Origin: Antedon mediterranea | Lineage: Eukaryota > Echinodermata > Crinoidea > Comatulida > Antedonidae | NCBI RefSeq assembly: GCF_964355755.1 | Contig: NC_092680.1 | Location: 9,339,001-9,403,000, forward strand | Direction of reading: 5' to 3' | Length of the DNA stretch: 64,000 bases | In this document: in pieces, positions 5,122 through 54,466 of the stretch | How the letters are laid out: the number at the start of each line of letters is the position of its first letter | Position numbering within the stretch: the stretch's first letter is position 1 | Notes under the pieces: model-generated | What the model saw: the letters and a program-made list of their open reading frames with translations, nothing else | Databases searched by the model: none | What the model was told of the DNA's origin: nothing | Program-made: the position numbers and the translations under genes

Positions 5122-8100
5122 ATGTCTTCCTTTAAAACAAATAGTGGCTTTTGGATCACAATAATTAGTATATGTGTAACTGTTAGTCACAGTCAAATTG
5201 GTGAGTTTTAAGGGTGATTTTTGTACTTTTTAACTGTTTTAACTAGGCAAGGCTACTGCTGCTGCTGTGGAGAAACAAATTGGAAGCTAGGCTCAGAGCC
5301 CCTAGTACCATAGCATAGGCAAATTTAAAAAAACACCACCAGGCCACTTGTATGTAATTTTTTTGTCATCATAAACTAGGTAAACTACTAGTAGTAGTAA
5401 ACACTAACAATTATAATAATTTTTGCAATATCTGTAATCTAGGCCTCGTTCCTATCTATAATCTCAATGATACTAAATTGCTTGCGTAATTTTACGTATC
5501 TCCCCCAGAAACTGCTGAATGGTACGTGCTCACATTTGGCACACTGATGTTTCTTGATGGGTCGCACACGATAGGCTTTATCTCTTTCCTGAATTTTAAA
5601 GATAAACACTAAAAAGGCAAATAATTTAACAGAAATTTAACGTCTCAACGGCCATGTTTCGCAAATTGTAAACATACACTAGACACATCATTTAAAAAAA
5701 AATTTTCTTTTTTTTGAGGATAAAGGTCAAGTAGAACAATTAAACAAATTTAATGCAAGCCCATCTGATAATGAATTTATTTTTGTTTGCAGTTTGTGTT
5801 ATTGAACCATTAAAATTAGAGCTGGACACCGGATCAAGTGGCATGCTGACGTGTTCTTGTCAAGGCACCACAGCAACTGATGAAATGTGGTGGTGTCAAG
5901 ACAACCAGGAATGCGCCAAACAAGCAGCTATCGAAGCTGACCCAGCAAACTTTCTAACGAGTAGTGCTTTCAACAATGGACTTCTAGTCGGCGTTCTTAC
6001 TGTGTTGGATGCTCAGTCACGGCACAGTGGATTATATTATTGTAAAACAAAAGACGGTGGCAGTTTCGATGCTTCAATCGAGGTATCAAATGGTAAGTTG
6101 AAGTAATGGACTAATAATTATTACTAAATAGTACATGTAAATGGATAACTGCAATTTATTTTCCCATGCCTTGATAATAAATACTGTATAAATATACTGT
6201 AAACTTTGCATATACAGTAGTATCATAAATTATAAACTCCAAGCCATTTCATTTTTTATATTTCACACCATAGAAGTGCCACAGGCATTGACTTAAAAAT
6301 TGTTATATACAACAATTGTTTTTAAACAATATTAATATACTGTACCTCTCCTTTTTTTGAAACACTACTAAAACGGCAATGACAAGTTTGACAACCACTG
6401 CCAACCTCTATTCAGGAGACAACATCCCCCCACCCCATCTCTATTAACTAAAGTACAGTACTAAAATGTGGCAGTACTCAGGCTGTTTCTGGAATACGTG
6501 ACAATAGAAATTTTGAAGCAGAGATCTGGTCATACATCAAAACAGATTATTTTTGGTTTTTTATTTGATTTTGTAATTTAAAAAATGATTCATTAGTCAA
6601 ATCATCATCATCATCAATATACTGTAATCAAGGACATTACATCCAATTTAGGTGGAGTATATAAACCAGTTAATGAAACGGAAGGGGGTGGTGAAGACGT
6701 TATAAAAGAAGTTGTTGTTATGAGCAGCAAAAACCCAGAAATCATAGCCTCAGAAAAAACGCCAGTAACAACAGATGCAAAATCTGGTGGATTACATCAA
6801 GGTATAATTTGTACTAATTTCAGTACATTTGTTAGTTTATTATTATTCGGTGGTAGTGTACAGTAACTAACAACACTTTTGGATGCACACATGCAAATTC
6901 TTTTTGTTTTGACTTTTGTAAACTCTATCCTAAACCAGTTTTGATTTTGTCAATCCATGACAAAGTGCCATACTGTTACTGTCCTCCTTCTTACAATGGA
7001 AACAATTGCATGTGATTACTAATTATGTAAAATTATTTTATTAAGATATTACAGAATACTTTAATAAAATGTGTTTGCAGTTAACATTTTGGATTGTTCT
7101 TTATTTATGAAGGTGGTTTATGTATTAACATTTTAAACTGTTTTTAATTTGTTATTGGTTGTTACTTGGATTTCTTGCAAATAGCACAGATCACTGATGT
7201 CTGTCCTTATTCAATTCACTCTTTGCAGATCTTTCTTAGGCATTTTTTTTGCTGCCAATATGATATTTATAAATTTATACCGTATGTTGGGTACCCTTTT
7301 TGCTGCCAATAAAAAATACCATATATTTTGGTTTTCCATAACTTGTTTACACATGGATGGATTATCTAAACTCAACAAAAGTAAGGAACTGCAACATTTG
7401 CAAATAATCTGTTGGTGAAACAAATATTTCGGGAAAATTAACAAGGAATAAACAGAAAGCAGAGGATACACAACATCGCAAAAGATTTGAGGTATCGAAA
7501 GGCAGGTTGGGTAAAAAAGATGAATTTTAACATGACCACTCACTCAAAATACATAGTAGGCCTACAGGTACTAAACAATATGGTATAAAATATACAATAT
7601 TTTATACCGTATTTTTATACCATATTTTGAGGATATGCAGCAAAAACAGGCCCTTACTGTAGTTGTGTTATTGTAATTTGTTTTATGTTCTAAATAATAT
7701 ATAACAATTAGACTTTTTGTGTGTATGTGTTCAGTGTAGTATTAACAATAAACTAATAGTAATCCTGATACAATACAGTGTCCTTGCCACATGTGGATAT
7801 TATAGTAATGACCAGCGATCTTTATTTAAAGTACTACAGTAATTGTACTTACGATTTGCTGGTCATTTTTGTACAGCTAAATTCTAACTACTGCATACTC
7901 TCTTCTATATTGTACTGTTATTTTTTCCTTGGGGTTAAGATTACTGTATTATATAAAAAATGTATTTGTTAAATAGTTGAAACACCCAAAAATATATGTT
8001 TTTGTCATGACAATATATTTTTCTGATTTACTGTATAGTATACAGTAATGTACTTGTAACTGTACTGTAACAATAATACAGCATGATTTGTTATTCTTAG

Positions 8101-11100
8101 ATCATTCCTTTATCCTATCTGATAACAAAAGAGTTCCTATGGTGTAATTTAATTAATAGAAATGATTTCCTGAATGATTTAAAACAATGTAGAAAAAACA
8201 TACTGGATTTGGTCAACTACCTTTGTTATTGCCAAAACAACACTATTGGATGCAGTGCATTTACAGTAGTGAATGTACAGTAAATTAAAAAAACAATTGA
8301 ATGTTTTGATCACAAAAAACACAATAAAATGAATAGTGTACTTTAGTGTAAATGAAAATTTGTATAGTACAGAGTGCTATGGAGTAAAAGGTACTATTTC
8401 TATTTCTGCTATTCTCATAGTATAGCCAACATTTTAAATTCTATTTATTAAAAAAAATAAAATACATAAAACAATTGTTACGTAAAAATAAGTCCGTTCT
8501 AAATTCTAAATTAAAAATAACCCATCCCTACAAAATAGTGTGTTATTAAACTGGTTAATACTGTATGTAGTATGCTTTTGATGATGTGGGTAATCCTTAA
8601 CCAGATGTTACATAGATAACTATTTATACCAATCTATTCAGTTTTATATTCAGTCATGCTAACCATATGCTATTCTAGGTTAGTGTTCATTTGATGATTG
8701 ATATCATGGAGCTCCATGGTTGAAAGTTATTCTATCTCATAGCAAGTATCGATGCCAGTGAAATATGTTACACTTTTCTGGGATTTTATTGTTTTTGTGT
8801 TGTTGTGTTGTTGGGTTTAAACAGGAAGGTATGAACAATTTAGCAGATTTGATTAAACTACAGTATATTTTAGTCGGAATGTACATTCCCATTTTTGTGT
8901 TATCTTTTTTATTGTTATGGTTTGTTTCTTTGGACGCACCTTCACAAGTTGAAGTGTGCCACTGATAAAAAAAAAAGTGCAGTGCCAATAAATTGTTATT
9001 ATATTTCTTTGTTAAAATTTGACTGAGGCTTAAATCCTCTAGACTGAGTTGGGGGATATTCCTTCAGGCATCCACATTTTGTTTGGATGGGTGTTAAAAA
9101 TAGTCAGGTCTGGGTCAGTGAAAATCCTATCCAATATAGAAAAAAAAACCATTCTCATGTTCATTATACTGTACATCAGTAATACAACCTTAGGAAGTTT
9201 TGTAAACCAATTTGAATTGCAGTTAAAACATGTGTTCTCTGCAGGTACTCTGTTTAAAGTACATGCTACTCACTGTATTCATTTTTTAGCTGGTACTGTA
9301 GGCCTTATGCATCTGTAGTATTCTTGTACCTGTAGTATATTGTTACATATTAAATAAAATAGGCATAAATTGTTATTTTGTTTAAACCTGGATAACTAAT
9401 TTTAACACCTACCTTTTCTAAATTTTAAAACAAATGTTTTTAAGGTCTAATGAAAAGTATAGTTAAATGTTGAAATGTCATTGTACGTCATTCATTGCAT
9501 TTTGATTGCCCTTTGAACTTTTTTCTATTGCTAGTTCAAAAGGGAGCAAAGATTATGAATGCTAACCTATTAATTGCATTTTATATTTGCATGTGCATGC
9601 CAAGTGGTCTGTAAATCCTAATGGTTAAAGATGTATTGTCCCCCTGAAAAAATAATTCTTAAACAGATTTTTGTTGAATATTCCATTTGAATGTAACATA
9701 ATAGTTATCCACTTTGACCAAAAATTGGATCGGGAAAAAAATGTATTTTTCTGAAAAAATGTAATTTGAAGCAAAAAATGGTCAAATTGGCTGTCAGCCA
9801 ATGGATTTTTGGTTGAATTTAACCATTTATTTTGTCATTTTATAAGTGAAAACATAATTTTTTTTCTATGGAAGTGATTAACTTGATTAAAACTACAAAA
9901 TAACATATTCAAAAGTCTGATTTAATTATGTATTCATTATTTTTCATGTTTTTGGGGGACAATACGTCTTTAAGCCTTTTATAAGCAAAAGCACTTTGTA
10001 TTTTCTAGAACTATTGTAAATTTAAGGCAGGCTGTGAAATTGTTTAAAAGATTTTTGTTTAAATACTGCAAAGCTCACTCTCTCGCAGGAGAAGATTGGT
10101 TAAACAGTTACTTATTTATTGTCTCTTTTTGTTTTCTTTTTTTAGCCCCCTATATTCAAATGACACCGAGTGAAAATCAGGTAATCACAACTAATGAGGA
10201 CATTGAAGTAAAATGCAGTGTAATAAATGCTGAAGCAACAGACATTACCTGGTACAAAGAAAAAGAACAACTACACACAGAAGGAAGCTATGAAATATAT
10301 GGTAACACACTTACAGTTAAATCACCTGGAAGTGACCAAGCAGGCACATACTCATGTCAAGCTATTGTTCAAAATAACAATGGATCAGCGTTGCAATTGG
10401 AACATTTTATTACACTCGGAGGTAAAGTCTTGTTCATTACTGAATTGAGCTTTCGGCTTTAGATAGTGAATAACCTTAAAGCTCAGGTAGAGGCATGAAT
10501 TTTAAATATAATATCTGGTTAATTGTACATAAATGAAATATTTGTAACAGAAATCAAGACGAAAAAACATGAATTTCACCTGCAGTCAAATACAAAATTT
10601 GGCAAAATTCTGCCATAAAAACCAGGAAGACTTTTTTTAGTAGTTAGGTAGTTTAACCATGTAACTATATAGTTCCATGGTTAAACCTAATGTAATAACA
10701 TGTCTGGTGACTCCTTAGAAGGTGAAAAAAGGTAATAAAAATGAAAATAAAAATCTGAAGTTGAATAAAAATAGCAGAAATGTAAAATACTGTATATTTA
10801 GTCATCTGATAACATTTTTTACCACACCGTTTATTTTTCATAGCTTTTTAAAATGCTTCTCTATTTACAAAATTTGTTTACAAAAGAATAGAGATTTTAC
10901 TGTGTAATTTGAACTATCCCCACACTGAAGAAAGTGCTTATTTTCAACAAGCTTGTGTAACACAAATAAATCCCAAAAAAATATGGAACATAAGGGAAAC
11001 TATAGCCTTTAAAGTCTTCATAAAAATAGTTATGGCTCTCCAATCAGTGCATGTACAGTACCCACCACCCACAGTACCTCAATATGATAGACAGTACGTT

Positions 11101-12897
11101 GCCTGTAATGGTTCGCCTCGATCACTATAATAACAGTCTTTCAACTCTTTCAACTGTTCTTTCTACTCAAAATTCATTTTCAGTAATGTTGTTTGTTAAT
11201 TTCTGAAGCTGCAAGATTTTATGATGATTTGGTTATGTTTGATGATGCCATTTTTCGATAAGCATACCTGTAAAAAACAAACCACTTTAATATACAAGTG
11301 GTCTGTCTGATTAGGTTACCTGTTGAATAAAGAACGTAGTACAATAATTCAATTCAATTAATAATATTAGTAGTATATTATTATTAAATATAGGTTATAT
11401 TCAATTTCAGAACCAATTAGTATAAAAGCCACGGAATCCGTGAAATACACAGAAGGTGAAATTGCAAGAGTGGTGTGTATAGCTACATCCAGCCCTCTAC
11501 CAACTATTTCATGGTTTTTAGATGGTTTAAACATCACAAATGTGATTGCACAGGGCAACACTAGCCACTACCAGGAAGTCGGGCGTGAGGATGGACCACA
11601 TGGTTGGAAGTCTACTCTCAGAGTTTTAGATCTGTCATTTGCTGACGCTGGTCTCTACAACTGCTCAGCATTTAACGGTGTCGTTCATGAGTACAGGACT
11701 ATTGACCTCAAAGTTCAAGGTCAGTATAAACAAAAAAAGAACAATTAAATAAATTAAAAAAACTTTATTGTGCTAAAGCGTGGCAATTGAAGCCAAAATA
11801 CTTATCACACTATGTAAGATCTATGTATCTTTCTTAAGTTGTTAGACTCATTAATTTTTGCAGTTTTGTTTGTAGTTTGTCTATAACAAGAGAAGATTAT
11901 TTGTGAAATGATAATAATAATAATTTGCTTTCAGATCGTATGGCTGCTGTATGGCCTTTCCTAGGCATTGTTGGTGAATGTACATTTTTAATTATTGTGA
12001 TTCTTATTCATGAAAAATGCACTGAGGAAAATTATGAAGAAGAGGAATACAATGAAGAAACAATTAAAATGTAAGGCTCTGTCTACAGTATCAAACTTTA
12101 TGTGACAAAAAAAATGTGATGTCCATAATTATATGGACATGATGATGTCATATTACTACCATACTTGGACACACCTTTTTTGTCAAACTAGTTTGATCGT
12201 GTAGACAGAGATTAAGAACATGACTTTGCAATTAATTTGAACAAATTAGGTTTGAAATATTAAATCACAATGATGTGTTCCACTTTTTTTCAGGTTATTT
12301 TATATGTAGTCAGTGTGTTTATTATGTGTTCGTAAATGAATATTTGCGCAATTTTAAAGGATAGAACATTTTAGTACTTCCATTAAAACAAGGAGGACTG
12401 TATTATATTTTTAACATTCAATGCTTTTATTAAGCCAGTAATTGTACAGTATGTGAACATAAAATGATCATCTAACGTTATAAGCTTAATCACAAACATG
12501 ATTAATAGATAGGTCATTATCTGATTTCTATGTTAATGATTTCTATTTATCATGTGAAATAATTAAAAAATAAATGTAAACTTTTTTGTTAAACCAGTTG
12601 TCAAGTACTTACTTGCTACGTTTTGACTATTTTCAGTAGCCTTGGTCACGCAAATGAGTAAGTACTTGACAACTGGTTTAACAAAAAAGTTACCACTTAT
12701 TTTTTAAATATCCATTTGAAACCAGATGAAATTTTTTTTAAATTTGAAATAATGATAATATATCCTGATAATTAAGTCACAATATTTCATATGAACTTGT
12801 TAATGAGAAATATTAATGTATTTTATATTTTTGCTTTAGAAACAAGAAGCATGACCCAATAAATGATAAAAATGATGTACGAGACAGAGAAAACTGA
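5122..12897 (+). CDS. Basigin/neuroplastin-like Ig-superfamily membrane protein 1
   Basis: Spliced exons are 5122-5200, 5793-6092, 6652-6801, 10146-10421, 11411-11719, 11935-12070 and 12840-12897. They total 1308 nt, 435 aa, and every junction keeps the frame (phase 1, except the last at phase 2). The order is signal peptide (about residues 1-25), Ig1 (27-126, with CSC and WWC cysteines), a hinge of about 50 residues rich in Glu, Lys and Val (127-176), Ig2 (177-268, WYKEKEQ and GTYSCQA), Ig3 (269-371, SWFLDGLN and AGLYNCSAFNG), a transmembrane segment (about 374-397) and an acidic tail. The transmembrane text AVWPFLGIVGE, with Pro379 and a buried Glu386, is the hallmark of basigin and neuroplastin. 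The tail end NDKNDVRDREN resembles the neuroplastin C terminus. Potential N-glycosylation sites lie in the hinge, Ig2 and Ig3. By family knowledge it should chaperone monocarboxylate transporters or PMCA pumps at the plasma membrane and mediate adhesion; that role is inferred. Confidence 0.88.
6802..9623. other. Long intron 3 of basigin-like gene 1, no additional exon recognised
   Basis: This AT-rich intron is scattered with TACAGTA/TACTGTA words. Several short reading frames (7197-7543, 7778-7972, 8737-8988, 9049-9318) are hydrophobic, low-complexity and lack domain signatures. Frames at 7211-7418 and 8765-8965 have equally long antisense partners. A local repeat of tttttttgctgccaata-type text occurs near 7245-7310. 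I found no splice-flanked Ig-like exon. Confidence 0.55.
9624..9973. mobile_element. MITE of about 350 bp in intron 3 of basigin-like gene 1
   Basis: The ends are inverse copies: ttaaagatgtattgtccccc at the left and gggggacaatacgtctttaa at the right. The interior is A/T runs, including cataatagttatccacttt, and has no reading frame. Fragments of the family lie at 1628-1762 and about 17290-17400. Confidence 0.75.
12075..12211. mobile_element. MITE abutting the exon 6 splice donor of gene 1
   Basis: The ends gctctgtctacagtatcaaa and agtttgatcgtgtagacaga are near-perfect inverse copies, and the interior holds a smaller palindrome around tccataattatatgga. The element starts four bases after the exon 6 donor GT, so the donor consensus (gtaag) runs straight into the TIR. 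A sister copy is at 35931-36047. Confidence 0.8.
12580..12691. repeat. Near-perfect hairpin in intron 6 of gene 1
   Basis: The left arm contains ttttttgttaaaccagttgt and caagtacttac. The right arm is its inverse: gtaagtacttg followed by acaactggtttaacaaaaaa. Arms are about 33 bp with a loop of about 46 bp. It is probably a tiny MITE and has no coding content. Confidence 0.8.
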
Positions 12898-24300: not shown

Positions 24301-27300
24301 GACACGCTATTGCGCATGCCCAGAGCGAGGTAATCGGGGCGACTCTATACTGTACTTCTTATCAAAGAACTTAGTTCTCTTTGTTCTTATCAACAGCGAT
24401 GGATCATTTCATAGCTGCGCCACACGGCGAACTAGCCTAGCCTAGATGCCTACTAATATGGGATCCACTAATCTAGGCTAGGGCTACCAGTTAGACGTGA
24501 CCAGTGGTCCTATAGTATTTATTTTGTAATTAAAAAGTGGTTGCTTCATTCATATATACACTTCATATCATTATGAATTATATAATTACATGACTAGTTT
24601 TATATGGAACGCCTCCTCTGCCTTCAGTTCACATTTATCATGCAGTACACACCAATCGTAATGCAGTACACCCCAATCGTCATGCAGTACACACCAATCG
24701 TCATGCAGTACACACCAATCGTCATGCAGTACACACCAAACATCATGCAGTACACACCAATCGTCATGCAGTACACACCAATCGTCATGCAGTACACACC
24801 AATCGTCATGCAGTACACACCAATGGTCATGCAGTACACACCAATTGTCATGCAGTACACACCAATCGTCGTTCACATTTATCATGCCGTACACACCAAT
24901 CGTCATGCAGTACACACCAATCGTCATGCAGTACACACCAATCGTCATGCAGTACACACCAAACATCATGCAGTACACACCAATTGTCATGCAGTACACA
25001 CCAATCGTCATGCAGTACACACCAATCGTCATGCAGTCAAATATTGCGTATTTATACCGCCACCTATCGACAAAATCGAATATCACGTGAGTTTTATTAG
25101 ACGGCTGTAAAACTAAGACTATTTAAACTTCTTTTATGGAATTCAATAATTGCAATGGCCTCCTAGCCGCGCCTGTGTCTCGCATAATAAATTATTGTAT
25201 ATATAAAAAACAGAGCATTCACAGAGATGTGTATGGAACGCCTCCTCTGCCTTCAGTTCACAATGGTCATGCAGTACACACCAGTCGTCATGCAGTACAC
25301 ACCAGTCGTCATGCAGTACACACCAATGGTCATGCAGTACACACCAATGGTCATGCAGTACACACCAATCGTCGTTCACATTTATCATGCAGTACACACC
25401 AATGGTCATGCAGTACACACCAATCGTCATGCAGTACACACCAATGGTCATGCAGTACACATCAATCGTCATGCAGTACACACCAAACATCATGCAGTAC
25501 ACACCAATCGTCATGCAGTACACACCAAACATCATGCAGTACACACCAATGGTCATGCAGTACACACCAATTGTCATGCAGTACACACCAATCGTCATGC
25601 AGTGAAATATTGCGTAATTTATACCGCCACCTATCGACAAAATCGAATATCACGTGACGTTTATTAGACGGCTGTAAAACTAGGCCATCGACTCTAAGAT
25701 TTCTTTTATGTTTGACATACTGTACTTATTTTAACCGCTACACATCTCTGTGAATGCTCTGTTTTTTATATATACAATAATTTATTATGCGAGACACAGG
25801 CGCGGCTAGGAGGCCATTTCAATTATTGAATTCCATAAAAGAAGTTTAAATAGTCTTAGTTTTACAGCCGTCTAATAAACCTCACGTGATATTCGATTTT
25901 GTCGATAGGTGGCGGTATAAATTACGCAATATTTGACTGCATGACGATTGGTGTGTACTGCATGACGATTGGTGTGTACTGCATGACAATTGGTGTGTAC
26001 TGCATGATGTTTGGTGTGTACTGCATGACGATTGGTGTGTACTGCATGACGATTGGTGTGTACTGCATGATAAATGTGAACGACGATTGGTGTGTACTGC
26101 ATGACAATTGGTGTGTACTGCATGACCATTGGTGTGTACTGCATGACGATTGGTGTGTACTGCATGACGATTGGTGTGTACTGCATGACGATTGGTGTGT
26201 ACTGCATGATGTTTGGTGTGTACTGCATGACGATTGGTGTGTACTGCATGACGATTGGTGTGTACTGCATGACCATTGGTGTGTACTGCATGACGATTGG
26301 TGTGTACTGCATGACGATTGGTGTGTACTGCATGATAAATGTGAACTGAAGGCAGAGGAGGCGTTCCATAGATGTGTAGCGGTTAAAATAAGTACAGTAT
26401 GTCAAACATAAAAGAAATCTTAGAGTCGATGGCCTAGTTTTACAGCCGTCTAATAAACGTCACGTGATATTCGATTTTGTCGATAGGTGGCGGTATAAAT
26501 TACGCAATATTTCACTGCATGACGATTGGTGTGTACTGCATGACGATTGGTGTGTACTGCATGACAATTGGTGTGTACTGCATGACCATTGGTGTGTACT
26601 GCATGATGTTTGGTGTGTACTGCATGACGATTGGTGTGTACTGCATGATGTTTGGTGTGTACTGCATGACGATTGGTGTGTACTGCATGACCATTGGTGT
26701 GTACTGCATGACGATTGGTGTGTACTGCATGACCATTGGTGTGTACTGCATGATAAATGTGAACGACGATTGGTGTGTACTGCATGACCATTGGTGTGTA
26801 CTGCATGACCATTGGTGTGTACTGCATGACCATTGGTGTGTACTGCATGACGATTGGTGTGTACTGCATGACCATTGTGAACTGAAGGCAGAGGAGGCGT
26901 TCCATAGTTTTATGATTTTTCATAACGCATTATAGTTACTCTCTACATAACAACATGCAATCACAAGTTGATTTGTTGACGGCAGCCACCGCGTGAATGT
27001 GAAAAAACTGTTCGGGAAGTCAGGGTCGCAACGCTAAAAACAGCATTACGATTCTTAGATAGATACTGATACTTATTAATATCATTATAATTATTTTAAC
27101 GCGTGGCGTAGTCGTATTTTAATTATTAATTCATGTATGGCATAGACCAAGTTTCATCCATCGCTCTCTCCCCCGCGCAACGACTATCTAGGCTACAGTA
27201 AATCCCTATAATACTCCGACTCTCCGTGGTGTGGCACACTATTCAGTATTAGTGCAAGCTATAATTCACTTCCCAGAGCTCTGGGCATGCGCAATAGCGT

Positions 27301-33300: not shown

Positions 33301-36300
33301 GTGGTTTCAGAGGAGGAATGTCCATGATTGAATACACAGTACGTGTGCTGTTTTTGACGATCTGCATTTTTGGATCCTCGGGTATAAGCCTAAAGCTTCC
33401 AGGAAACTTTTCTTTTTACGATCACTAAAACGATTTGGTTTTAACATTGAAGAGCTTAAATTGACCTTTTGTGGTTACATTAGACCAGTTGTTGAGTATG
33501 CTGATGTTGTTTGGCATTCTGGCCTGTCTAGTAGATTAAGCGATTGTATTGAAAATGTTCAAAAGAGGGCTTGCCGTATAATGTTAGGCAATGATTACTT
33601 TTCTTACTCTGGTGCCCTTGAATTTCTTAAATTAGAGACTTTGGCTCAAAGAAGGGTGGAGCATTGTCGCAAGTTCGCTGAGTATCTCCCCAAAATTAAA
33701 CAAACAGCTGATTTAATCCCACCGACAAGACATAGCTGTCATGGTAGGAATTTAAGAAATAAAAACAAAATTACCCAGCTAGCGTCTAAAACATCCAGAT
33801 TTACCAATAGCCCTATACCCTACTTCATCAAATTACTGAATTCTTAATTTTCTCCCCTGCTAGTTTGCGACTGCTCTCCCCTTCTTTGTTGTTTTTTTTT
33901 TTTTTTTTCATTTTTTTTATATATATTTATTTTTTTGATATGACATGTATTTTACACGCAATTTGGCTCTTAGCCACGAGTTGTAATTTTGGTCAATTTT
34001 TTGATATTTGAAATAAAAGTGAATAATAAGCCCACCCCCCAAACTTGCCGTGATTTCATGTTCAAAGAGAGTGGACTTATACCCGCTTCAGTACGGTAAT
34101 TAATCATTAAATATTTATATATTTTGTAGCAAAGATTGACGTAAAAGCTGATCTATCTGTGAAGGTAACTGAAGGTAAAGATGCAGAGATTAAATGCGTA
34201 GCGAGGTCGTATCCCCAACCAAAAGTCACTTGGAGGGTTCCCGGGCAAAATCAAACAATAGAAGGTACAAAGGGAAACACGGATGACGACGATGATACAT
34301 ATACGTACACATCCACACTCCAGATTATGGACGTTACACAGCGTCAATATTATACGTGTATAGCCAGTCACCAATTTACTAATTCAACTCAGACAGATAT
34401 TCTCTTACGTGTTAGAGGTAAGTTTTTTTAAAATATTTATTGGATTTTAGTTCATAAGGGTTATTAGGGAAGTTTTGATTTGCAACAACCAAACCAAGTT
34501 ATGTCAATTCATTGTGAGCATGCAGAGAAGTCGTGACATGCTTCCGCGTTTCGGTAGTTTCTAGATTCAGACGGTGACTGGCGACAAATCAATTGACCTG
34601 ACCTAACTTGTTCCAATAATATTTCGGTTTCCTTTCAACTTCATTATAAGACACGTTAAATCATTTTTTTTAAATACAAATTTAGAGTAAGATTATAATT
34701 CTTGTTGTTATTTTGTATTGTGTAGCAAAAGAACATCCATTGCATAGAGGTAAGGAATCTATTACTAAATTCCAAAATATATTGATTAAGGCCCATTTAC
34801 ACTAGGACGATAACTATCGACGATAAATAGACAAATGTGCATTTTTCATACATAAAACAAAAGAAATATAAACACTTTTCATTCTAGAATTGTAGAATAA
34901 CCATCTATGCTTCTTTTGATGAAAATTATATTTTCATTTTGATTGGAATTTTAAAAATATTATTTTTATCAAAGACAGCATAAATGATTATCCTATAGTT
35001 CTAAAACAAAGCCCTTTCTAATTTCTTTTGTTTTATTTTAAAAAAATGCATGCTTATATATTTATCGTTGATCGTTATTGTCCTAGTGTAAATGGGCCTT
35101 TACCTTGGATTGAAACATCACGGACCTTCCAACTTGGACAAATTAAATATCAGGAGCTTTCATGAAAGCATGAACTATAATGGGCGACATACATTAAAAA
35201 ATCTGAACATATTGGCATCCATAATACTGCAGTAAACACGGATAAGTCAGGTGTGCAAAATGGCGGAAAATCTGTTGCCAATTCATTATTTAACAAAATA
35301 ACAAATGAATTTATTAAACATTTTACAGACCAAGATCATCAGTATGTTTTCTAATCTTTTATCTTTATATTATGAAATTATGATTTTTTTAAGCATTATG
35401 TTGTTTATTAAAAAAATTGGGAGAAATTGCATTTTAGCAGGTGATGACAAGATATTAAGGAAAAAAACATGATTATCGGGAGAATTGGGAAATCTGACAT
35501 AGTATTGGTAATATATTAAGACGGTCCAATCTAATTTTATCCAGTGAATTACTGTATATTTAATGTACAATGCATCAATTTTAACATATTATTTTTAAAG
35601 AATTCTTATTATTAATATTGTATTTAATTTTTTAGTAATTATATTATACTTTAACACAATAGTTAGTTAGTTATTGATGGCGGCAACAACAAAATAAAGT
35701 TTATTTTTCATATTTAACAATGTCCACAAAGTTGTTTTGGCATTTTTACCTGTGGTGATATTAATATTATACCACTTCAATTCATACTTTAGGAGTAATT
35801 TTCTTTTAAAAGGATATTTAATTAGTAAGAATAATTTAATTTAAAAAAAATATTATTTTACTGTAATACATATATTTACTTAATTAATATTAATAAGGTT
35901 TGCATGGCAAATAAATACTGGTAAAGTAAAGCTCTGTCTACACTATCAAACTAGTGTGATGTGCCAAAATATGGTAGTGATATGACATCATGGATGATGT
36001 CCATATATGGGCACTTCACCCTAGTTTTATATAGTGTAGACACAGCTTAAGGGTACATATGACAGATTTCCAATTTTATGTTATATATTGCAAACCTTAC
36101 TTAATATATATTTATTCAATTATTAATATTTATACTGGCGATTGACATATAGTAGTAGGTTATAAAATATAAAATAAAATGTAAAAAATATAATAAAAAA
36201 TATTAAAAAAAACAATACTGTATGTTTTATATTAATTCATTTTATATTTGGTATTTTAAGTATGCTTTTTTTTACAATTAAAAAGTATTTATATTCATAT

Positions 36301-37027
36301 TCATAATTTAAGAGACACCTACAGTGGAGTTTCCTTAATAGGTGTGTCTCCTGAATAGAGTTTATTGGCTGTTGCAAGATACTTTTCCCTCGTACATCAT
36401 GAGAAAGCTTCTCATTAATATAGATGTACAAAAAGAGAGGTTCTACTGTTAATTGATTTTAAAGCATTTAAAAACAATTATTATGTTGATGACTACAGGT
36501 ACATATTATTATTATTATTATTATTATTTGATAAACTTTTTTCTTTACAGGCAAGTTAGCATGGCTTTGGCCATTCCTTATAATTCTTGGTATAAGCATA
36601 ATTCTAGCTGCTATCTTTGTAACTCTACATTTTAAAGAAGGCCGTGATGGTGATGAAGAGGAAGATGAAGAAGAAAGCCCAATGTAAATACATGTTTACA
36701 CACACACATATAAGTCTGTTTCACATTTAGGTGAATTGAAATTATGCATGTGCATACTTTTCATTTTCTCATCTGCCACTTTGTGTGATAAATGTTATGT
36801 GGGGTGTTATTTAGGGAAAAGTGCCTTTAGTGTGGTACTCTGTAATTATTTAGTTTATTTTTTGTTAATCAGTTTTTTTGGTGGGAGATAAGAATAAGAT
36901 AATGTATGACTAATTTATATATTTACCAAGTGACACTTGTAATGTAACTTATTGCTTTTTTTTTTAAAGGATATCTGGAAAACCCAAGAACATCCCTGCT
37001 GCTACCCCGGCTGACCCTGATGCATAG
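21331..37027 (+). CDS. Basigin/neuroplastin-like Ig-superfamily membrane protein 2
   Basis: Exons are 21331-21385 (signal peptide), 31395-31703 (Ig1), 31991-32266 (Ig2), 34130-34417 (Ig3), 34726-34749 (a 24-nt microexon), 36551-36683 (transmembrane and acidic tail) and 36970-37027. They total 1143 nt, 380 aa, with intron phases identical to gene 1 (1,1,1,1,1,2). Ig1 shares gene 1's pattern: a CVC pair, then LWWC and an extra Cys. The transmembrane segment LAWLWPFLIILGI (about 320-343) keeps the WPF motif, but the position of the basigin-family Glu is Ile332. The tail is Asp/Glu-rich (GDEEEDEEESP) and ends PAATPADPDA, without the DKN-R-R ending of gene 1. It looks like a diverged tandem duplicate on the same strand. 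The 9-kb hinge exon gap of gene 1 has no equivalent; the linker is lost and a microexon precedes the membrane. Function is inferred: adhesion or transporter-partner protein. Confidence 0.86.
21551..24203. mobile_element. Inverted-repeat element in intron 1 of gene 2
   Basis: The left region (21551-21760: gacgatcgggc, gatgaaatcggtcgcg, tgtatggcg, gtttgaaatcagtcgcgc) and the right region (23925-24203) are inverse copies. The right region contains gcgacctatataaaacg, gcgctccatacaaaatacca, gcgaccgatttcatctg and gacgatcgggccc. Arms are about 230-280 bp, with about 2.1 kb between them lacking a transposase. A short fragment of the same vocabulary is at 30841-30935. Confidence 0.6.
24604..25110 (+). 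repeat. 21-bp tandem array block A1
   Basis: Leader, about 19 units and trailer. Unit variants differ in the last bases (ATCGT, ATGGT, ATTGT and AACAT types). An internal gttcacatttatcatgc interruption splits it at about 24871. The order of variants is almost the same as in block 25868-26372 read in reverse. Confidence 0.85.
25230..25675 (+). repeat. 21-bp tandem array block A2
   Basis: Same leader and trailer as A1, with about 16 units richer in the ATGGT variant and with an internal gttcacatttatcatgc interruption at about 25374. The variant order matches block 26446-26910 read in reverse. Confidence 0.85.
25868..26372 (-). repeat. 21-bp tandem array block A3, inverse of A1
   Basis: On the minus strand it carries the same leader, units, interruption and trailer as A1. 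Flanking spacer 25745-25867 is the inverse of the spacer that follows A1 (25111-25229), with matching words aattcaataattg, tgtgtctcgcataataaatt and cattcacagagatgtg. Confidence 0.85.
26446..26910 (-). repeat. 21-bp tandem array block A4, inverse of A2
   Basis: Minus-strand copy of A2. The spacer between A3 and A4 (26373-26445: gatgtgtagcggttaaaata, catacttaaaag-type text) is the inverse of 25676-25745, which follows A2. Confidence 0.85.
27601..28281 (+). mobile_element. MITE with TTACCGTACTGACGCGGG ends, copy 1
   Basis: It begins ttaccgtactgacgcggg and ends with the exact inverse, cccgcgtcagtacggtaa. Sub-terminal ggtataagccca words are repeated at both ends. The interior matches copy 2 (32876-34105) in order and orientation, e.g. 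cacctacctttgatcata and gaggcctagcggtcctgttt. There is no transposase. Confidence 0.85.
28975..29860. repeat. 76-bp tandem satellite, about 11-12 units
   Basis: The unit contains gtaaattattaatgcaatac, tgtataaagatttgatagta and gatttggcgataccgtac. Consecutive copies of the gcaatactgt word are 76 bases apart. Central units are nearly identical, and both edges are degenerate (variants with gattcgatagtatgtaaatg). The minus-strand Tyr/Leu/Ser-rich frames here are repeat text. Confidence 0.85.
30321..31394. other. End of intron 1 of gene 2; short gacgatcggg repeat fragment
   Basis: At 30841-30935 the words gatcggtcc, gacgatcagg, gggcctgatcgtcc and gggcccgatcg recall the ends of the 21551-24203 element. 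30960-31100 is dense in the ctaggc/taggcct vocabulary. No exon is seen until the acceptor at 31393-31394. Confidence 0.5.
32300..32592 (+). mobile_element. SINE with CR1-type tail in intron 3 of gene 2
   Basis: A tRNA-like start (around ttcgactacgaatcc) is followed by cctaataggcaagacactta, tttgcctctctccacccagg, tgtataaattggaacccggt and a tail gcgctatataaatccaagat ending in short ATT repeats. This head, body and tail layout, with a gcgctatataaat(c)c plus ATT tail, is typical of deuterostome and cnidarian SINEs mobilised by CR1-like elements. It is distinct from the SINE at 15428-15767. Confidence 0.65.
32876..34105 (+). mobile_element. MITE copy 2, split by a retrotransposon
   Basis: It matches 27601-28281 in order and orientation (cttactgacgcgggtataag start; gaggcctagcggtcctgttt; tttttggatcctcgggtata; cacccccc; end cagtacggtaat). 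It is interrupted between 33390 and 34026 by the non-LTR fragment annotated separately. Confidence 0.8.
33391..34025 (+). mobile_element. 5'-truncated CR1/jockey-like non-LTR retrotransposon
   Basis: A reading frame, open from 33392 to the stop at 33847, encodes text typical of the C-terminal region that follows the reverse-transcriptase domain: YIRPVVEYADVVWHSGL, then IENVQKRACRIMLG and ETLAQRRVEHCRKFAEYL. A T-rich 3' UTR follows, ending aaataaaagtgaataat. It is flanked by ataagcc on both sides (33384-33390 and 34026-34032), a 7-bp target duplication inside MITE copy 2. Only the last 150 or so codons inserted, a normal 5' truncation. It lies in intron 3 of gene 2 in sense orientation and is not a host exon. 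Confidence 0.8.
34788..35102. mobile_element. MITE of about 315 bp in intron 5 of gene 2
   Basis: The ends aaggcccatttacactagga and its inverse (tcctagtgtaaatgggcctt) continue into cgataactatcgacgataaa against tttatcgttgatcgttattg. The interior is AT-rich and non-coding. It starts only about 38 bases after the 24-nt microexon. Confidence 0.85.
35931..36047. mobile_element. MITE, sister of 12075-12211
   Basis: The ends gctctgtctacactatcaaa and gtgtagacacagct are inverse copies, with internal gatgtccatatatggg shared with the other copy. Degraded relatives appear at about 32690-32820 and 40660-40780 (atggtagt-atatgaca, gtccatata words). Confidence 0.75.
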
Positions 37028-40000: not shown

Positions 40001-41189
40001 CTTTCTGCAGTAAATAACATGTTAAAGAGTAAGCAACATGTTACGTAGTTGCTACAGTAACTGTAGTAGAACAATGACCCCTAGTAGTAGTAGAATGTTG
40101 ACATTGCTCCTGATAAGTAGGCTGTGTACTGTACATCATATACACCAACACATTATCGTTTCAATCATGGTAATGGAATTAACTTTGTAATAATCAAATG
40201 ATACATATTACAGAAGACATTTTCTATTTAATAAGACAAAACATATTTCAATATACACGTGGGGCTTATTTATAATACATTCCGAAGTTTAATGTTTTAA
40301 AAATGTATTTCTTAATGTCTTAATATATGTGTTGTAGGGAGCTTTCAAATTATATTGCATCATGGGATTGGTTTTGCTATTTGTTATTGGAAATCTTAAT
40401 TTCATACATTATAAGATGACTCAGGAAAAGTACAACACTTCAAATTTCCTATTCTATTATGTGATATAGAGTTTTCCCTTTGTGATAACATTGTCAATCT
40501 ATTGTACAACATGCTTCCAAGCTGTCCACCTCAACACAGTTTAGATGCTTTCCAGTCCAGGTGACAACCGACGACTGGCTTGTTCCTTGTTGCAAATCAA
40601 AAGCTCCCTATGGTGCTACTTTGTGGACCTTGACGTTTATAACGGTTCAAATTTTGTAAAACAGTGGTTTATGTCTAAAAAAGTGTGATATGCCCAAATA
40701 TGGTAGTTATATGACACCATCGTGTCCATACAGTATATGGGTAGGCCCTACATCATATTTTTTGTCATATAAGTATGTAGGTACGTGTAATGTAAGAAAA
40801 TCGCAAGAAAACATATCGGGTGATCCATTGCTTATGGTTGATTGTGGGGGATCAAGGTTTGGACACTTTGTCAGTGCCACCATTTTAATGCCATATGGTC
40901 ACTTCATAGGTCTGGTCAATAACCAAAATTAGTTCTAGAATTGCCATTGTAGTTAGAAAGCTCTCTGTTATGATATACAGTATAACAATATTTCGAATGC
41001 TATCAATTCTACTGATTGTAGGTAAACGCCACAGAAAGTGTTGCTGTTTTTAATTAAAAGTACTGTTATGTGGGGGTTTGTGCTCTTTTTAATTGCATTA
41101 TGGTGTTTTGTAATAAAGTATACAATCATAGAGGTATTTGATTATCTCTATGAATTTGTGCACACTTAAAAGATAATTATTGCTTACTG
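37028..41189. other. 3' UTR of gene 2 and intergenic DNA, no gene recognised
   Basis: This is AT-rich, with many TACTGTA words, and the 3' UTR of gene 2 lies somewhere at the left. Reading frames at 37201-37440, 38399-38584 and 40690-40932 show no domain. The last overlaps degraded MITE text related to 35931-36047. A copy of the ctattaaaggggacac word followed by ctacgggacctaacaaagtg is at 39797-39830. Confidence 0.55.
38569..38705. mobile_element. MITE of about 137 bp
   Basis: The ends gcttggttcgcactagaatg and cctagtgggaaccaagc are inverse copies. Inner words caacacaaatacgcaagtga and acttgcattgtgtttatgtt are also near-inverse, so almost the whole element is a hairpin. Confidence 0.8.
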
Positions 41190-42400
41190 ACGGATCATTT
41201 TAGGATTGAGTACTATTTCTTTGAGTATTGCCCACTGATGGATCTATTTAGGATTGAGTACTATCTCTTTGAGTATTGCTCACTGACGGATCTTCCTTTT
41301 AGGATTGAGTACTATCTCTTTGAGTATTGCTCACTGACGGATCTTCCTTTTAGGATTGAGTACTATCTCTTTGAGTATTGCTCACTGATGGATCCTTTTA
41401 GGATTGAGTACTATTTCTTTGAGTATCGATCACTGACGGATCCTTTTAGGATTGAGTACTATCTCCTTGAGTATTGCTCACTGACGGATCATTTTAGGAT
41501 TGAGTACTATCTCTTTGAGTATTGCTCACTGACGGATCTTCCTTTTAGGATTGAGTACTATCTCTTTGAGTATTGCTCACTGATGGATCCTTTTAGGATT
41601 GAGTACTATTTCTTTGAGTATCGCTCACTGACGGATCCTTTTAGGATTGAGTACTATCTCCTTGAGTATTGCTCACTGACGGATCATTTTAGGATTGAGT
41701 ACTATCTCTTTGAGTATTGCCCACTGATGGATCTATTTAGGATTGAGTACTATCGCTTTGAGTATTGCTTACTGACGGATCATTTTAGGATTGAGTACTA
41801 TCTCTTTGAGTATTTCCCACTGACGGATCATTTTAGGATTGAGTACTATCTCTTTGAGTATTGCTTACTGACGGATCCTTGTAGGATTGAGTACTATCTC
41901 TTTTGAGTATTTCCCACTGATGGATCTATTTAGGATTGAGTACTATCTCTTTGAGTATTTCCCACTGATGGATCTATTTAGGATTGAGTACTATCTCTTT
42001 GAGTATTTCCCACTGATGGATCTATTTAGGATTGAGTACTATCGCCTTGAGTATTGCTTACTGACGGATCCTTTTAGGATTGAGTACTGGCTCTTTGAGT
42101 ATTGCACACTGACGGATCATTTTAGGGAGTATTGAGTACTATCGCTTTGAGTATTGCACACTGACGGATCATTTTAGGATTGAGTACTATCGCTTTGAGT
42201 ATTGCTCACTGATTGATCATTTTAGGATTGAGTACTATCTTTTTGAGTATTTCCCACTGATGGATCTATTTAGGATTGAGTACTATCGCTTTGAGTATTG
42301 CCCACTGATGGATCTATTTAGGATTGAGTACTATCTCCTTGAGTATTGCACACTGACGGATCATTTTAGGGAGGATTGAGTACTGTCTCTTTGACTTTAA
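41190..42400 (+). repeat. 48-bp minisatellite, about 25 units, frame-preserving
   Basis: The unit is actgacggatcattttagga, ttgagtactatctctttgag, tattgctc. Some units carry a 3-bp insertion (cttcctttt), making 51. Every length variant in 41238-41880 is a multiple of three, so one frame stays open for 222 codons with the repeat FRIEYYLFEYCSLTD. An extra T near 41902 breaks it, and it resumes in another frame to 42135. Later units lose or gain bases (gggagta, gggagga). I treat it as non-coding repeat; the possibility of coding is discussed in the findings. Confidence 0.85.
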
Positions 42401-43850: not shown

Positions 43851-44193
43851 TGACATATCATGCTTTAAAGTCTCATTCGAGGCTAGGGAGTGGAGGGTGT
43901 AAAAAGAGTCATTAGATAAGCCTACAATTACCCTGGCACCCAGTCAAGAAAGTTAACGAATAATTGTTGTGTCTGCATGAAAAGCCTCTTAAAAATAAAA
44001 TCAGCGCGAATCAAAGTTGATTTGTGTTTTGTGATACAAATAAATTCAAGTTAAAAATAAGTTTATAAAAAAATAAAACGATAGACAAATACGGAATAAT
44101 CTACACTGTATTTCATTATTATATCATTTCGTATATTATTGTTGAATTATGGTATTAATACTGTTTGTATTGGTATTCGATTTTCCGTTTTCT

Positions 44194-49323: not shown

Positions 49324-52300
49324 ATGGAAACAGTGGGTAAGTCCTCTTTAATGATATTCAGTGATTAAAATGCTAATAACATAACCTAGTTGTCGGCAGT
49401 TTCGGAATATAAATATAAATGGCTCTGTTATTGAAATCGTAAATAATTACAAATACCAGGGGTATTACCATTGACAATGAATTAAATTGGGCTGAACAAT
49501 GTAGAAATACTATACGGAAAGGAAATGTGCCACTGTTCTTTCTTAGGAAACTTTAGGACTTTAAATTTAGGACAAGTCAATATTAAATTTGTTCTACTCA
49601 TAAGTGGTTGAAAGTCTCATCGCTTTCTGCTGTGTAGTATGGTATGGAAAATGTAAAGAAGAGGATAAAATGTCTACTCAACGTATCGTAAAGAAATGTG
49701 GACTAATCACAGAAATGAATTATTCGCTGAAGGAAATATGTCATAAATGTATGTAAAACCACTAATATATTCAGAAAGACACGCAAAACATGCACTATAT
49801 AGTAAGACCCAGCGAAGTGTCCCCTTATAATAGTGTGCATTCGGGGTTACCATAGTGTCAAATGAAATATATTACCCCTGATGTGTTTGGTACTTGCCTA
49901 ATAACTCTCGACTCTAGAATGAATGTGCATAACCAGGAAGAAATTTTTCCTAGACATTTGCAACTATAGGCTAATTGATTTCCTTTTGGAAACGCCGGGA
50001 CCACAATCATAACCTTATTAGTACCTATATGTATGATGAAGAGGAAATACTTTAATGTTTTGAAACTCCCAGTGAGCTTACAAGCACTTGAATTGAATGC
50101 ATTACACTGATTCAATTGAAATCATCTTGATTGGATAAAAATGACATCATATGATTCCACATTGTACTCCATACCAACAACATGTTGCAACTGAAAAGAA
50201 CAGTTTTAGTTTTATTTAAAAAATAACATACCAACAATTTTTCACTATTTAAAAAGATGAGAAATCACCTAGAAAAGAAATGTTTTGGTGAAAAAATAGA
50301 ATTAAATTAAGCTAAGTGGAGTTAACAAAAGGATGGATATACTGTAAAGTATTGTAAATACAATTTTGTTATGTTTAACAGTAGAGATTGATTATTGCAT
50401 TGTTGTTCATCATGGTTAATTAAATACGTTTAATTGAACATTATTTAGAACCGTTGTTTCGAGGCAAAATGGAAGAGTGGGATCCATTAACTAATACAAA
50501 CTGAATAACAAAAAAATGTAGGCTTACAACCACATATTTATTTTATATACAGTAGAACTGTGGATACTTTCGAGACCAAAGAACGTGTCCACTGAATAAT
50601 CTTAAATTGAAGATTGAATAAGCTACTGCTACTGGATGTCTCCTTAATATGTTTTTACTTTTACTCTATTGACATCTGGAATGGTTATTTAATTGATGTA
50701 GGCCTACCGGTTATTTAATTTATTACATTTTGAATATTTCAGTCATGTGCATAAGTACATTAAAATAAAATAGAATATCGATTATAAATATGTACTGCAT
50801 TGCAACCGCTATTAAGGTGACAAAGTGTCCCCTTAATAAGGATGTCTTCTATTATTATGGTATAAAACAAATATTTGGCCCTCGTCTCTTGATAGGGAGT
50901 ACTATATGTAGGAGTATCTCAAGGCTGTGTAATATCACCTGTGTTGTATTCCCCTTTTCACTTCTGACTTTAGGTCACCAAATGAGTCATGTTCTGTGAT
51001 TAAATATGCAGACGATACTGTTATCACAGGATACATTTCAGGTGATAAACATGATAATGAATATGACTACCGTAAATTGATATCAGATTTTGTAAATTGG
51101 AGCAAATTTAATAATTTAAAGTTAAATGTTGGTAAAACTAAGGAGATGGTCGTAGACTTTAGAGTAAAGAAAGATCCTATTATTCCAGTTCTGATTGATG
51201 GTAACGAAGAGTAGAAGAATATAAATACTTAGGTTTTGTCATGGACCACAAACTATCGTGGGAAACCAATACGAATAGAATAGTTAAAAGAGCCAATCAA
51301 AGAATGTTTATACTTCGCAAAATGAAATCACTTTAATTAGTATTGATAGCTCCCTGTTAAAATTGTTTTATACCACCATGATCCAAAGTATTATGTCTTT
51401 CTGTTTGATATGCAATTATGAAAATATTAATAAAAAAGATAAAAAGAAATTGAATCGCATTACAAAGAAAGCTGAATATATTGTTAAAGATCCGTTGGTG
51501 CAGTTAGATGAAATATACATAGATTGGATAGTGAAGGCAGCCCTTAGCAAATACTTTATTATCAAACGCAATGGTATAGAATACATGTTCCAATAACTAA
51601 GACAAACAGATCGAGACATGCCTTTGTTGCAAATGCTATATTCATATAATTAATTCACGTCACCATCGATAAAATGTTATGTAATACAAGACTATGTAAA
51701 CAATGAAACTTTTAAAACGTAATTTTTTTCAATTTATAAATGTTTTTATATTTTTAATATGTTTAAACGTTTTTAACATTTTTAGCCTATTTGAAATTTT
51801 AGCAATTTATAAATTGTAAGGGTTTTAGGAACATTCTAATGGTTTGAATCCTTTTAAAGCTGTTTTTAATCCTTTTAAAGCTGTTTTAAACTATTTTAAT
51901 ATCCTGAATCCTATTCAATTTTAATACCTAGTCATTTTTAAACCGTGTTTCATAACTTATATTTTTTGTGCAATTATGTGTGTGTACATAATATATTATA
52001 TTGTATATCTATTTTTTTTTTGTACTAATAATTGTCAATCTTCAAGAAGAATTTTTTTTGTTATTTTATGATGATGATGGACAAATAAAGCATTTCAGTA
52101 TTCAGTATTCAGTATATACTAAGGGATGTCTTAAAATGGTTCTACTAAATTGCCTGGGTATAACATATAAGTGTAAATACCCAACGATAGTTTAAAATAT
52201 CCCAGTCAAATGAGTTCATTTTGATACCCCTCGTGCAATAGCAGACGTTTGTATAAAAAATGTATGTTTGTATAAAGTAATCAGTTTAACAATCAGTGAC

Positions 52301-54466
52301 TAATGGTATTCATGAACTTCTCGCTTGAATCGTACTTTATTCCAGGTATTAGTGAGAAACCAATAGCAAGGGACGAAGACATACAAGGGATCTTAAGTGA
52401 TTTGTACGAACTTGATGCAGCAGTCATTAAATCACAAGAGAGTTACAATGACCAGGTCTTTTACATTTCAACACAGACCTCTCCGGAACAGGAGTACATA
52501 TTAAGAGTGTTCAACCACACAGATTCTAAGAAGGCAGAATTAACTGAGATTATTGATGTGTTGGTGTGGTTGAATCAACAAGGTGTCAACTGTCCAAAAC
52601 CACTGAAAAACAAGTATGGTGATTACGTGTTTATGAAAAAATTGTCTAATAAAAAAAATGGTAGGAAAGGTTTCTTTTATTGTTACTGAGACAGATATGT
52701 TAAAAATATATTTTCCCCTGTAAAATGATAAATAATTGTTTATTAAAATTTCATCCAGACATTTAAATACCAGACACATAATAGAATTGTGTGTGTGATA
52801 AAGTGTAACTGATTAAAATATTCTCATCGACCAAGTTAAATTTAAACATAGACACAGAGAAGTATAATGTATACTAAATGTATACAGTACATCTTATAAG
52901 CAGTTACATTTTGTGTTAAAAGATTATTATTAATATTAAAAAAAGATTTTGATGATTTGATTTTCAGGAGTATTCATCCATGGGACGTATGCTGTTTGTC
53001 TCTACAACTTTGTTAAAGGAATTAAACTTATGAATGTAGAATCTACTGATGACGTAATCTATAAAGCTGGACAGTATCTTGCTCAACTGCAGATTACCCT
53101 TAAGGTTGATTTGCTCACAAATATTAACATTTTCTTCTTGTAAAACTCATAAAATTACAATCTAAATTCCTCTACCGTCTCTGTTGTGCTTAGCTTACCT
53201 GGATAAAACCATGGCAACAATGCTTCTTATTACCACTACTCAGAAGTGGGAGATTCCATAGCAATTGTCATAGATAAAGGGAATGCTCCTCCTACTTATA
53301 TTACAATGATCTTTAAGAAGGAGTTGCTAATTATTATCGTAATCTAAGTTAGTAGGATGAACCAATTGTCATTATCTATAAGCAGGAGGAGATTATTTTA
53401 AATCATGTTTATTTAATTATACTTTTTTTTAAATTTGTATCTCAGGGTGTAGAATTTCCGCTTACAAAACAAGTCGATTTCTATTGGAACTTTGATTGCA
53501 TTAGAGATATATTAAGAGACAACATTTTCCATGAATATGTTAGACATTCTGATAAAAGAGAGCTCATAACTAAGACATTCAACATGTTTGTGAGTGATGT
53601 TGACTCACGGAAATCAGAATTTGAAAAAGGTGTGTCATTTTAAATAATGAAATTAATCTTAACCGTTAGTAAATATATTGCTCTAGAGTTTTAGCGGGTA
53701 AGAAAAACATTAACTCACGGAGCCGCTGCGTATGTGGTTTAATCATGAAATTAAATATTGTCCTTGCATCATATATACAATAATTAATATTCATGCAAAA
53801 AAAAATGCAGTAAAAGCCCTATTAAATGGACACAGTTTACGGGACCCAACAAAGTGGTCGTAGGGCTACGTTTCACAGAAAAGTGTCTTATTATGGGATA
53901 GGAAGGTTCACTGAGGGGGGATTTCCCAGTGTTACTTTATTGAAAAGCAAAAAGAAGTAATATTTGTTTCTGTTATTAATTTTGTTTATATTTCAGGTCT
54001 TGTTCATTCTGATTATAATGAAAGCAACATTCTTGTGGAAAGTTTTCCAAATTCAGTTAATGGAACATCAAAGACATTTATTGTAGGAATCATTGACTTC
54101 TTTGATCTTTGTTACAATCCACTTGTTTATGACGTTGCTATAGGCCTTCTGTACATGATGTTGATGCGCCCTCAAGATATGCTGACTGCAGGGGGACACT
54201 TCTTAGCAGGTTATCAAAGCAAAAGGTGTTTAAAAGACATTGAGAAAGAAGCGATCATTAAGACAACATCAGCCAGGCTGGCTCAGTCTTTAGTGTCAGG
54301 ACTGGTCTCGTTCTCCAAAGACCCAGAGAATGTCTATCTTTTGAAAACACAGACGTCTGGCTGGGACTGCCTTAGTATGCTGTCAAATACACCGGAACAA
54401 GATATTTGGAAGACATGGGATAGTTTATTGAATGAGTATGATCAATACACAAATAATGAAACTTGA
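49324..54466 (+). CDS. HYKK: Hydroxylysine kinase-like (aminoglycoside-phosphotransferase fold)
   Basis: Exons are 49324-49336, 52346-52660, 52968-53104, 53446-53629 and 53997-54466. They total 1119 nt, 372 aa, essentially the length of human HYKK (373 aa), with consistent phases. Exon 1 encodes only METV plus one base. Exon 2 starts GISEKPIARDEDIQGILSDL and contains the ATP-binding-lobe strand text QEYILRVFNH. Exon 5 holds the catalytic loop HSDYNESNIL (Asp222, Asn227) and the metal-binding IIDFFD, then the HYKK-like GGHFLAGYQS and NVYLLKTQTSGWDCL. The usual HGD is HSD here. The exon 3 donor (aag/gttgat) is weak. By family knowledge the enzyme phosphorylates 5-hydroxylysine with GTP in lysine/collagen breakdown. 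Intron 1 (3 kb) is full of retrotransposon debris. It is divergent from HCN. Confidence 0.88.
49440..49850 (+). pseudogene. Degenerate non-LTR reverse-transcriptase fragment
   Basis: Translation with frame changes gives YQGITIDNELNWAEQCRNTI, then RKGNVPLFFLRKL and later FCCV-type and WYG-type text followed by STQRIVKKCG. This is the post-RT region of Rex1/CR1-like elements. Stops and single-base shifts occur near 49555 and 49610-49640, so it is dead. It lies in intron 1 of HYKK in sense orientation. Confidence 0.65.
50911..51640 (+). pseudogene. Degenerate non-LTR reverse transcriptase with YADD motif
   Basis: The first segment (50911 on) reads GVSQGCVISPVLYS, the RT block preceding the catalytic box. 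After a shift the frame 50996-51214 reads IKYADDTVITGYISG and KLNVGKTKEMVVDF. After another shift, from about 51209, it reads VEEYKYLGFVMDHKLSWE. The last segment (51363-51596) reads KKLNRITKKAEYIVKDPL. At least three frame breaks show it is inactive. It is the same superfamily as the 49440-49850 fragment and probably a separate insertion, because the post-RT regions overlap in content. It lies in HYKK intron 1. Confidence 0.8.

Follow-up and report, generated by a model that had tools for sequence, protein, structure and literature searches.

A basigin-type and HCN channel gene neighborhood in the crinoid Antedon mediterranea as a probable counterpart of the vertebrate BSG-HCN2, NPTN-HCN4 and EMB-HCN1 linkages

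In human, genes of the basigin family are linked to HCN channel genes at three places, BSG with HCN2 at 19p13.3, NPTN with HCN4 at 15q24, and EMB with HCN1 on either side of the chromosome 5 centromere, and in all three pairs the basigin-type gene is followed by the HCN gene on the same strand. In chicken, chromosome 28 carries BSG/HCN2 and chromosome Z carries EMB/HCN1. On chicken chromosome 10, NEO1, HCN4, REC114 and NPTN lie together within 0.57 Mb according to the available text of one report (PMC10742582), and the available text of a human 19p13.3 deletion study names HCN2 in the region and BSG in its abbreviation list, with the gene order not given (PMC3141657). Here, we analyzed a 64,000-nt stretch of the genome of the crinoid Antedon mediterranea (contig NC_092680.1, hereafter C11; C11:9339001-9403000, referred to as the window), which contains two tandem basigin-type genes, designated A and B, together with an HCN channel gene and a HYKK-type gene. 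The same two families are close neighbors in this window and in the vertebrate BSG-HCN2, NPTN-HCN4 and EMB-HCN1 pairs, whereas the crinoid differs in having a single copy of the arrangement, two basigin-type genes in tandem and an inverted HCN gene. We consider it quite likely that the locus represents the unduplicated counterpart of a block that was copied by the two vertebrate genome duplications, and the basigin-HCN linkage is probably due to common descent.

The four gene models, assembled exon by exon, lie in the order gene A (+), gene B (+), HCN (-) and HYKK-type (+). Gene A (5122-12074; 367 amino acids, aa) consists of a signal peptide exon (5122-5200), three exons for immunoglobulin (Ig) domains, namely Ig0 (5793-6092), Ig1 (10146-10421) and Ig2 (11411-11719), and an exon for the transmembrane (TM) segment and tail (11935-12074). 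Gene B (31395-36687) has the same Ig0-Ig1-Ig2-TM layout, with exons at 31395-31703, 31991-32266, 34130-34417 and 36551-36687, and encodes 335 aa without a signal peptide exon, which was not found when the window was modeled. The HCN gene runs from 48664 to 44194 on the minus strand in nine exons (653 aa), and the HYKK-type gene, a hydroxylysine kinase-like gene with an APH fold, occupies 52312-54466 in four exons (379 aa). The stop codons of gene B and HCN are 7506 bp apart, tail to tail, and the start codons of HCN and the HYKK-type gene are 3647 bp apart, head to head. No further gene was recognized between the four among the open reading frames (ORFs) of the window and their Pfam matches; two ORFs lying among them, at 33332-33844 and 40660-40929, had no Pfam match, the former being a 171-aa frame within an intron of gene B. 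All 18 modeled introns are GT-AG, partly by construction because splice sites were picked to keep the frame; the four introns of gene A and the three of gene B are all in phase 1. These models confirm that two basigin-type genes, an HCN gene and a HYKK-type gene lie within 50 kb, as a sequence-only reading of the window had proposed, and the families were also named correctly there.

The predicted HCN protein comprises an N-terminal HCN domain (Pfam Ion_trans_N, E 3.5e-20), a channel core with a CIGYG filter, a C-linker, a cyclic-nucleotide-binding domain and a short C-terminus, the last exon of the model being inferred. Against PDB sequences, it scored 686 bits to HCN4 (7nmn), 670 to HCN1 (5u6o) and 647 to HCN3 (8inz), whereas the best non-HCN family, CNGA3, reached 192 bits, so that HCN channels, and not CNG or KCNH channels, are its closest family. 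As judged from these sequence features, the gene is with certainty an HCN channel gene. Its cyclic-nucleotide domain gave 313 bits to 2ptm, which we take to be from a sea urchin, versus 278 bits to a fragment of mammalian HCN4 aligned across almost the same residues. A search of the genome (354 Mb in 18 contigs) returned two HCN loci, on C11 and C1, and the sea urchin likewise has two. The C1 locus, which begins at C1:32257875, is divergent and carries GFG instead of GYG in its pore motif; it scored 432 bits against PDB compared with 686 for the C11 protein, with a C1 query that is incomplete and misses part of S4, and the cyclic-nucleotide region alone gave about 278 bits for C11 and 168-170 for C1. 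By PDB bit scores, the C11 gene is the better candidate for an orthologue of vertebrate HCN1-4. We judged the C1 copy less likely to be that orthologue, in view of its divergence, its GFG filter and its lower scores.

For the basigin-type genes, Ig domains alone were rejected as proof of identity, given that DSCAM and other proteins match first for both A and B. Over its full length, gene A aligned with basigin (7y1b) at 64 bits, spanning residues 143-353, in third place after DSCAM (87 bits) and titin (76 bits), and its identity therefore rests on the TM segment and the overall architecture. Of the 10 matches to the TM exon of gene A alone, basigin accounts for three and neuroplastin for two (E 1.1e-5 to 5.7e-4); the remaining five comprise embigin (E 0.78) along with four auxin transporters (E 0.21 to 2.5), and since the auxin transporters score in the same range, the embigin match is meaningless by itself. 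Gene A combines Ig domains, of which the group has two or three, with one TM segment containing a glutamate, and its predicted product is a basigin-family member, mainly by this TM motif.

Gene B matched neuroplastin (9gsd) as its second-best hit at 57 bits across residues 20-334, after DSCAM (93 bits), and its three Ig domains and TM segment can be aligned over the full length to three-Ig neuroplastin. The two crinoid proteins are 29% identical (94 of 322 aligned positions; z 48 versus 200 shuffles). The TM segment of gene B, LAWLWPFLIILGISIILAAIFVTLHF, contains no glutamate or any other acidic residue. According to the available text of a published account, this glutamate is present in all three members of the basigin/neuroplastin/embigin group (PMC3832594), and we therefore classified gene B as a basigin-like tandem homologue rather than a full member. 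It is possible that a glutamate was lost from the exon at 36551-36687 and that transporter chaperoning may have disappeared with it after tandem duplication. Furthermore, the occurrence of Ig0 in both genes indicates that the three-Ig form is no vertebrate novelty, and neuroplastin-like receptors of the BSG1 type have already been reported in scallop and amphioxus in the available part of a review (PMC9396122).

To count related genes, the genome was searched with gene A, and 77 matches with E up to 10 were listed. Five of these are the exons of gene A itself; the next best are an Ig exon on C9 (31%), followed by Ig2 and Ig0 of gene B. Among the 77 listed matches, a separate TM-exon match was found for gene A only, and none of the matches falls within 8 Mb of the HCN locus on C1. 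The TM exon of gene B was itself not matched in this search, and members that have diverged as far as gene B may thus escape it. Reading five weaker loci revealed no basigin-type TM segment, namely the C9 locus, chosen as the best match off the chromosome, and four loci at C1 40.87 Mb and C2 12.59, 12.61 and 12.78 Mb, chosen because their Ig alignments run toward a TM segment.

The chance that basigin-type and HCN genes are next neighbors was estimated at 1.3e-4 to 2.7e-4, assuming two HCN genes, one basigin cluster and 15,000-30,000 genes, and the hypothesis was derived from vertebrate maps and not from this sequence. The flanks of the block were read over 270 kb (334 kb in total with the window), and 29 flank ORFs, chosen from long lists by codon-usage score and by eye, were run against Pfam; with only these run and several long mobile-element-like ORFs left out, the flank gene list is incomplete. 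From left to right, the order is ASH1L, HERC1, KIF24, NUDT2, A, B, HCN, HYKK, RIT, INTS3, MRPS16, C18orf32, a C-type lectin and a polyketide synthase. In the left flank, ASH1L (+; C11 about 9211620-9230491) has SET exons scoring 166 bits to ASH1L versus 105 to NSD2, AWS and PHD matches under the cut-off, and two additional exons that match nothing in Pfam. It is followed by HERC1 (-), with RCC1, SPRY and HECT exons and two further ORFs that had no match, KIF24 (-), with SAM and kinesin domains, and NUDT2 (+), matching 3u53 at E 4.2e-24. In the right flank, RIT (+) scored 182 bits to Rit1 versus 121 to KRas, and Pfam matches identified INTS3 (+), MRPS16 (-), C18orf32 (+; DUF4512) and the lectin (-); the polyketide synthase (+; C11 about 9515927-9526904) shows ketoacyl synthase, acyltransferase, dehydratase, ketoreductase, ACP and thioesterase domains. 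Beyond the domain level, the names HERC1, KIF24, INTS3, MRPS16 and C18orf32 are our presumed assignments. In human, HERC1 is located at 15q22, HYKK at 15q25, INTS3 at 1q21, MRPS16 at 10q22 and C18orf32 at 18q21. The HYKK-type gene lies between HCN and RIT in the crinoid, whereas in human about 5 Mb separates HYKK from HCN4.

Two of these neighbors bear directly on the fourth vertebrate HCN gene. A human 1q22 deletion of 936 kb contains HCN3, ASH1L, PKLR and RIT1 according to the available text of its description (PMC7273683), and the presence of HCN3, ASH1L and RIT1 within one deletion indicates that the fourth HCN paralogue fits the same block, as ASH1L and RIT are near HCN in the crinoid too. 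The sequence-only reading was right in substance but had left out this HCN3 side of the paralogon. Two of nine neighbors (ASH1L and RIT) have a human homologue near an HCN gene (p 0.0006-0.009 under rough assumptions), in a count that was drawn up after the genes had been seen and that excluded the lectin and the synthase as members of large families. KIF24 (-) and NUDT2 (+) adjoin each other at C11 about 9313000-9337700 and form a second candidate ancient pair; a human 9p13.3 duplication of 185 kb holds UBAP1, KIF24 and NUDT2 in the available text of its report (PMC5048446).

At the scale of whole chromosomes, seven marker families were fixed before searching, with human map positions guiding the choice. 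Two of them, TLE and PIAS, lie on C11 (p 0.067), and MEF2 (PF12347, presumably the MEF2 domain), which was added last and outside the original list, is also on C11 and raises the count to 3/8 (p 0.011). These counts make C11 no more than a partial match to the paralogon, C2 takes as many of the markers, and macrosynteny was dropped as a main argument because two of seven is too weak. The available text of a comparative study assigns chordate linkage group C ancestry to chicken chromosome 28 and a mixture of C with L to chicken chromosome Z (PMC7269912). Group C is thus common to the chicken chromosomes of BSG/HCN2 and EMB/HCN1, and only 3/8 markers are on C11. The NNT homologue at C2:16446319-16447695 is a single open frame of 1064 aa and is possibly intron-poor or retrocopied.

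Several points weigh against common descent of the pair. The HCN gene is on the strand opposite to both basigin-type genes, unlike in the human pairs, a difference that one local inversion would explain; gene B lacks the TM glutamate; and MRPS16, at human 10q22, does not fit the paralogon. Five of the seven markers are off C11, with POLRMT on C3, PK, NNT and SIN3 on C2, and ETFA on C1, although POLRMT adjoins HCN2 in human. The position of PK on C2 is likewise unexpected, although the homologue PKLR is listed beside HCN3 in the available text cited above (PMC7273683). The orientation and the low marker count would also suit a chance encounter, in which basigin-type and HCN genes were brought together independently in this lineage, yet such an event has a chance of about 2e-4 under the assumed gene numbers, with the other genes of the block not yet counted, and we regard it as extremely improbable. 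A different account holds that only chromosome-scale linkage is ancestral, C11 and human 15q/19p13/1q21-22/5-9 descending from one linkage group, and that shuffling paired the two families here and separately in vertebrates. The TLE, PIAS and MEF2 markers on C11 agree with it, as do the amphioxus chromosomes corresponding to single linkage groups that show extensive rearrangement of internal order in the available text of the same comparative study (PMC7269912). Nevertheless, the chance of this neighborhood is still small within one 22-Mb chromosome, vertebrates have the two families tightly paired at three loci, and both KIF24-NUDT2 and ASH1L-HCN-RIT are close here and in human. We consequently hold the account by shuffling to be unlikely.

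Under common descent, a basigin-type gene and an HCN gene would have stood side by side in the last ancestor that A. mediterranea shares with vertebrates. Duplication in vertebrates would have given rise to BSG-HCN2, NPTN-HCN4 and EMB-HCN1 and to a fourth copy in which HCN3 accompanies ASH1L and RIT1 and the basigin-type gene has presumably been lost. The persistence of the linkage would most likely reflect slow local rearrangement together with entanglement of regulatory DNA, such that control elements of HCN may lie in or beyond the basigin-type neighbor and separation would be harmful; a direct partnership of the two proteins would be unnecessary. Irimia et al. reportedly proposed in 2012 that ancient microsyntenic pairs are kept by cis-regulatory constraint. 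Such pairs resemble basigin-HCN in being neighbors kept over very long times, and the crinoid pair is known from its genes alone. In echinoderms, known ancient microsyntenic pairs reportedly fall within topologically associating domains (TADs), with HCN unmentioned in the available text of a paper that also refers to the work of Irimia et al.; Hi-C and ATAC-seq maps are available for sea star and sea urchin (PMC13317027). In mouse, deletion of regulatory DNA upstream of Hcn4 lowered Hcn4 and changed Nptn, Neo1 and Loxl1 within the same TAD, and Nptn expression resembles that of Hcn4 in the conduction system, as summarized in the available part of a review (PMC10777909); these data make shared regulation plausible. 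The inversion of HCN speaks against a promoter common to the two genes and is consistent with enhancers acting at a distance.

The same expression pattern in the mouse conduction system (PMC10777909), along with the available reports that basigin-family proteins chaperone transporters and pumps, could also suggest that the linkage was kept because both proteins share one membrane complex and need co-expression. No report of an HCN-basigin complex appeared among the literature listed, in which no search was aimed at one; a paper on PMCA and neuroplastin names HCN in a reference only, and the tail-to-tail arrangement of HCN and gene B leaves no common promoter. Retention through a shared complex is accordingly very improbable. 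With regard to regulatory entanglement, a bolder extension would be that basigin-HCN forms one ancient regulatory unit, with HCN elements in or beyond the basigin-type gene, that was copied in the vertebrate duplications, and that Hcn4/Nptn pacemaker expression descends from a shared pre-vertebrate control region; this idea is speculative and rather doubtful.

The HYKK-type protein matched APH at E 1.6e-18 and carries HxDxxxxN and DFxD, which we take to be motifs of the APH-type kinase fold. Its NCBIfam matches, all far under the cut-offs, were to homoserine kinases and to the first third of two bacterial models, each about 1000 residues long, one of which is named aminotransferase. Further HYKK-like loci lie on C11 at 13.71 and 2.12 Mb, and "HYKK-type" is hence a family label, the gene being at most a candidate orthologue of human HYKK; it is predicted to encode a hydroxylysine kinase-like APH kinase with a putative substrate. 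Several repeats and traces of mobile elements were also observed in the window. A pair of oppositely oriented 21-bp minisatellite arrays (24638-26877) forms a large imperfect palindrome with arms of up to 379 nt that are 97% complementary, yielding long spurious ORFs, and the interval from gene B to HCN contains a 48-bp minisatellite in 25 copies (41178-42394), which yields a spurious 250-aa ORF. A 76-bp tandem array of 11 copies lies at 29004-29857, a weak reverse-transcriptase fragment under the Pfam cut-off at 50933-51214, and a THAP domain with pieces of a P-element-like transposase at 61003-62506.

The basigin-HCN window is a further example of conserved microsynteny, a known phenomenon. 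Among the literature matches listed, with supplements and subscription papers unsearched, there was no printed claim of basigin-HCN synteny, and an earlier report is possible. The proposal that the pair was already adjacent before the vertebrate duplications stands insofar as the genes are adjacent here, at a chance of about 2e-4, with ASH1L and RIT nearby, and is weakened insofar as gene B does not have the TM glutamate; the description of the locus as an ancestor was too loose, as it would be an unduplicated outgroup counterpart. If the same arrangement is found in other outgroups, the basigin-HCN neighborhood would predate the vertebrate duplications, and one ancestral block would explain the locations of all four vertebrate HCN genes, the fourth minus its basigin gene. 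There would then be reason to ask whether the pacemaker enhancers of HCN4 and the co-expression of NPTN share a deep origin.

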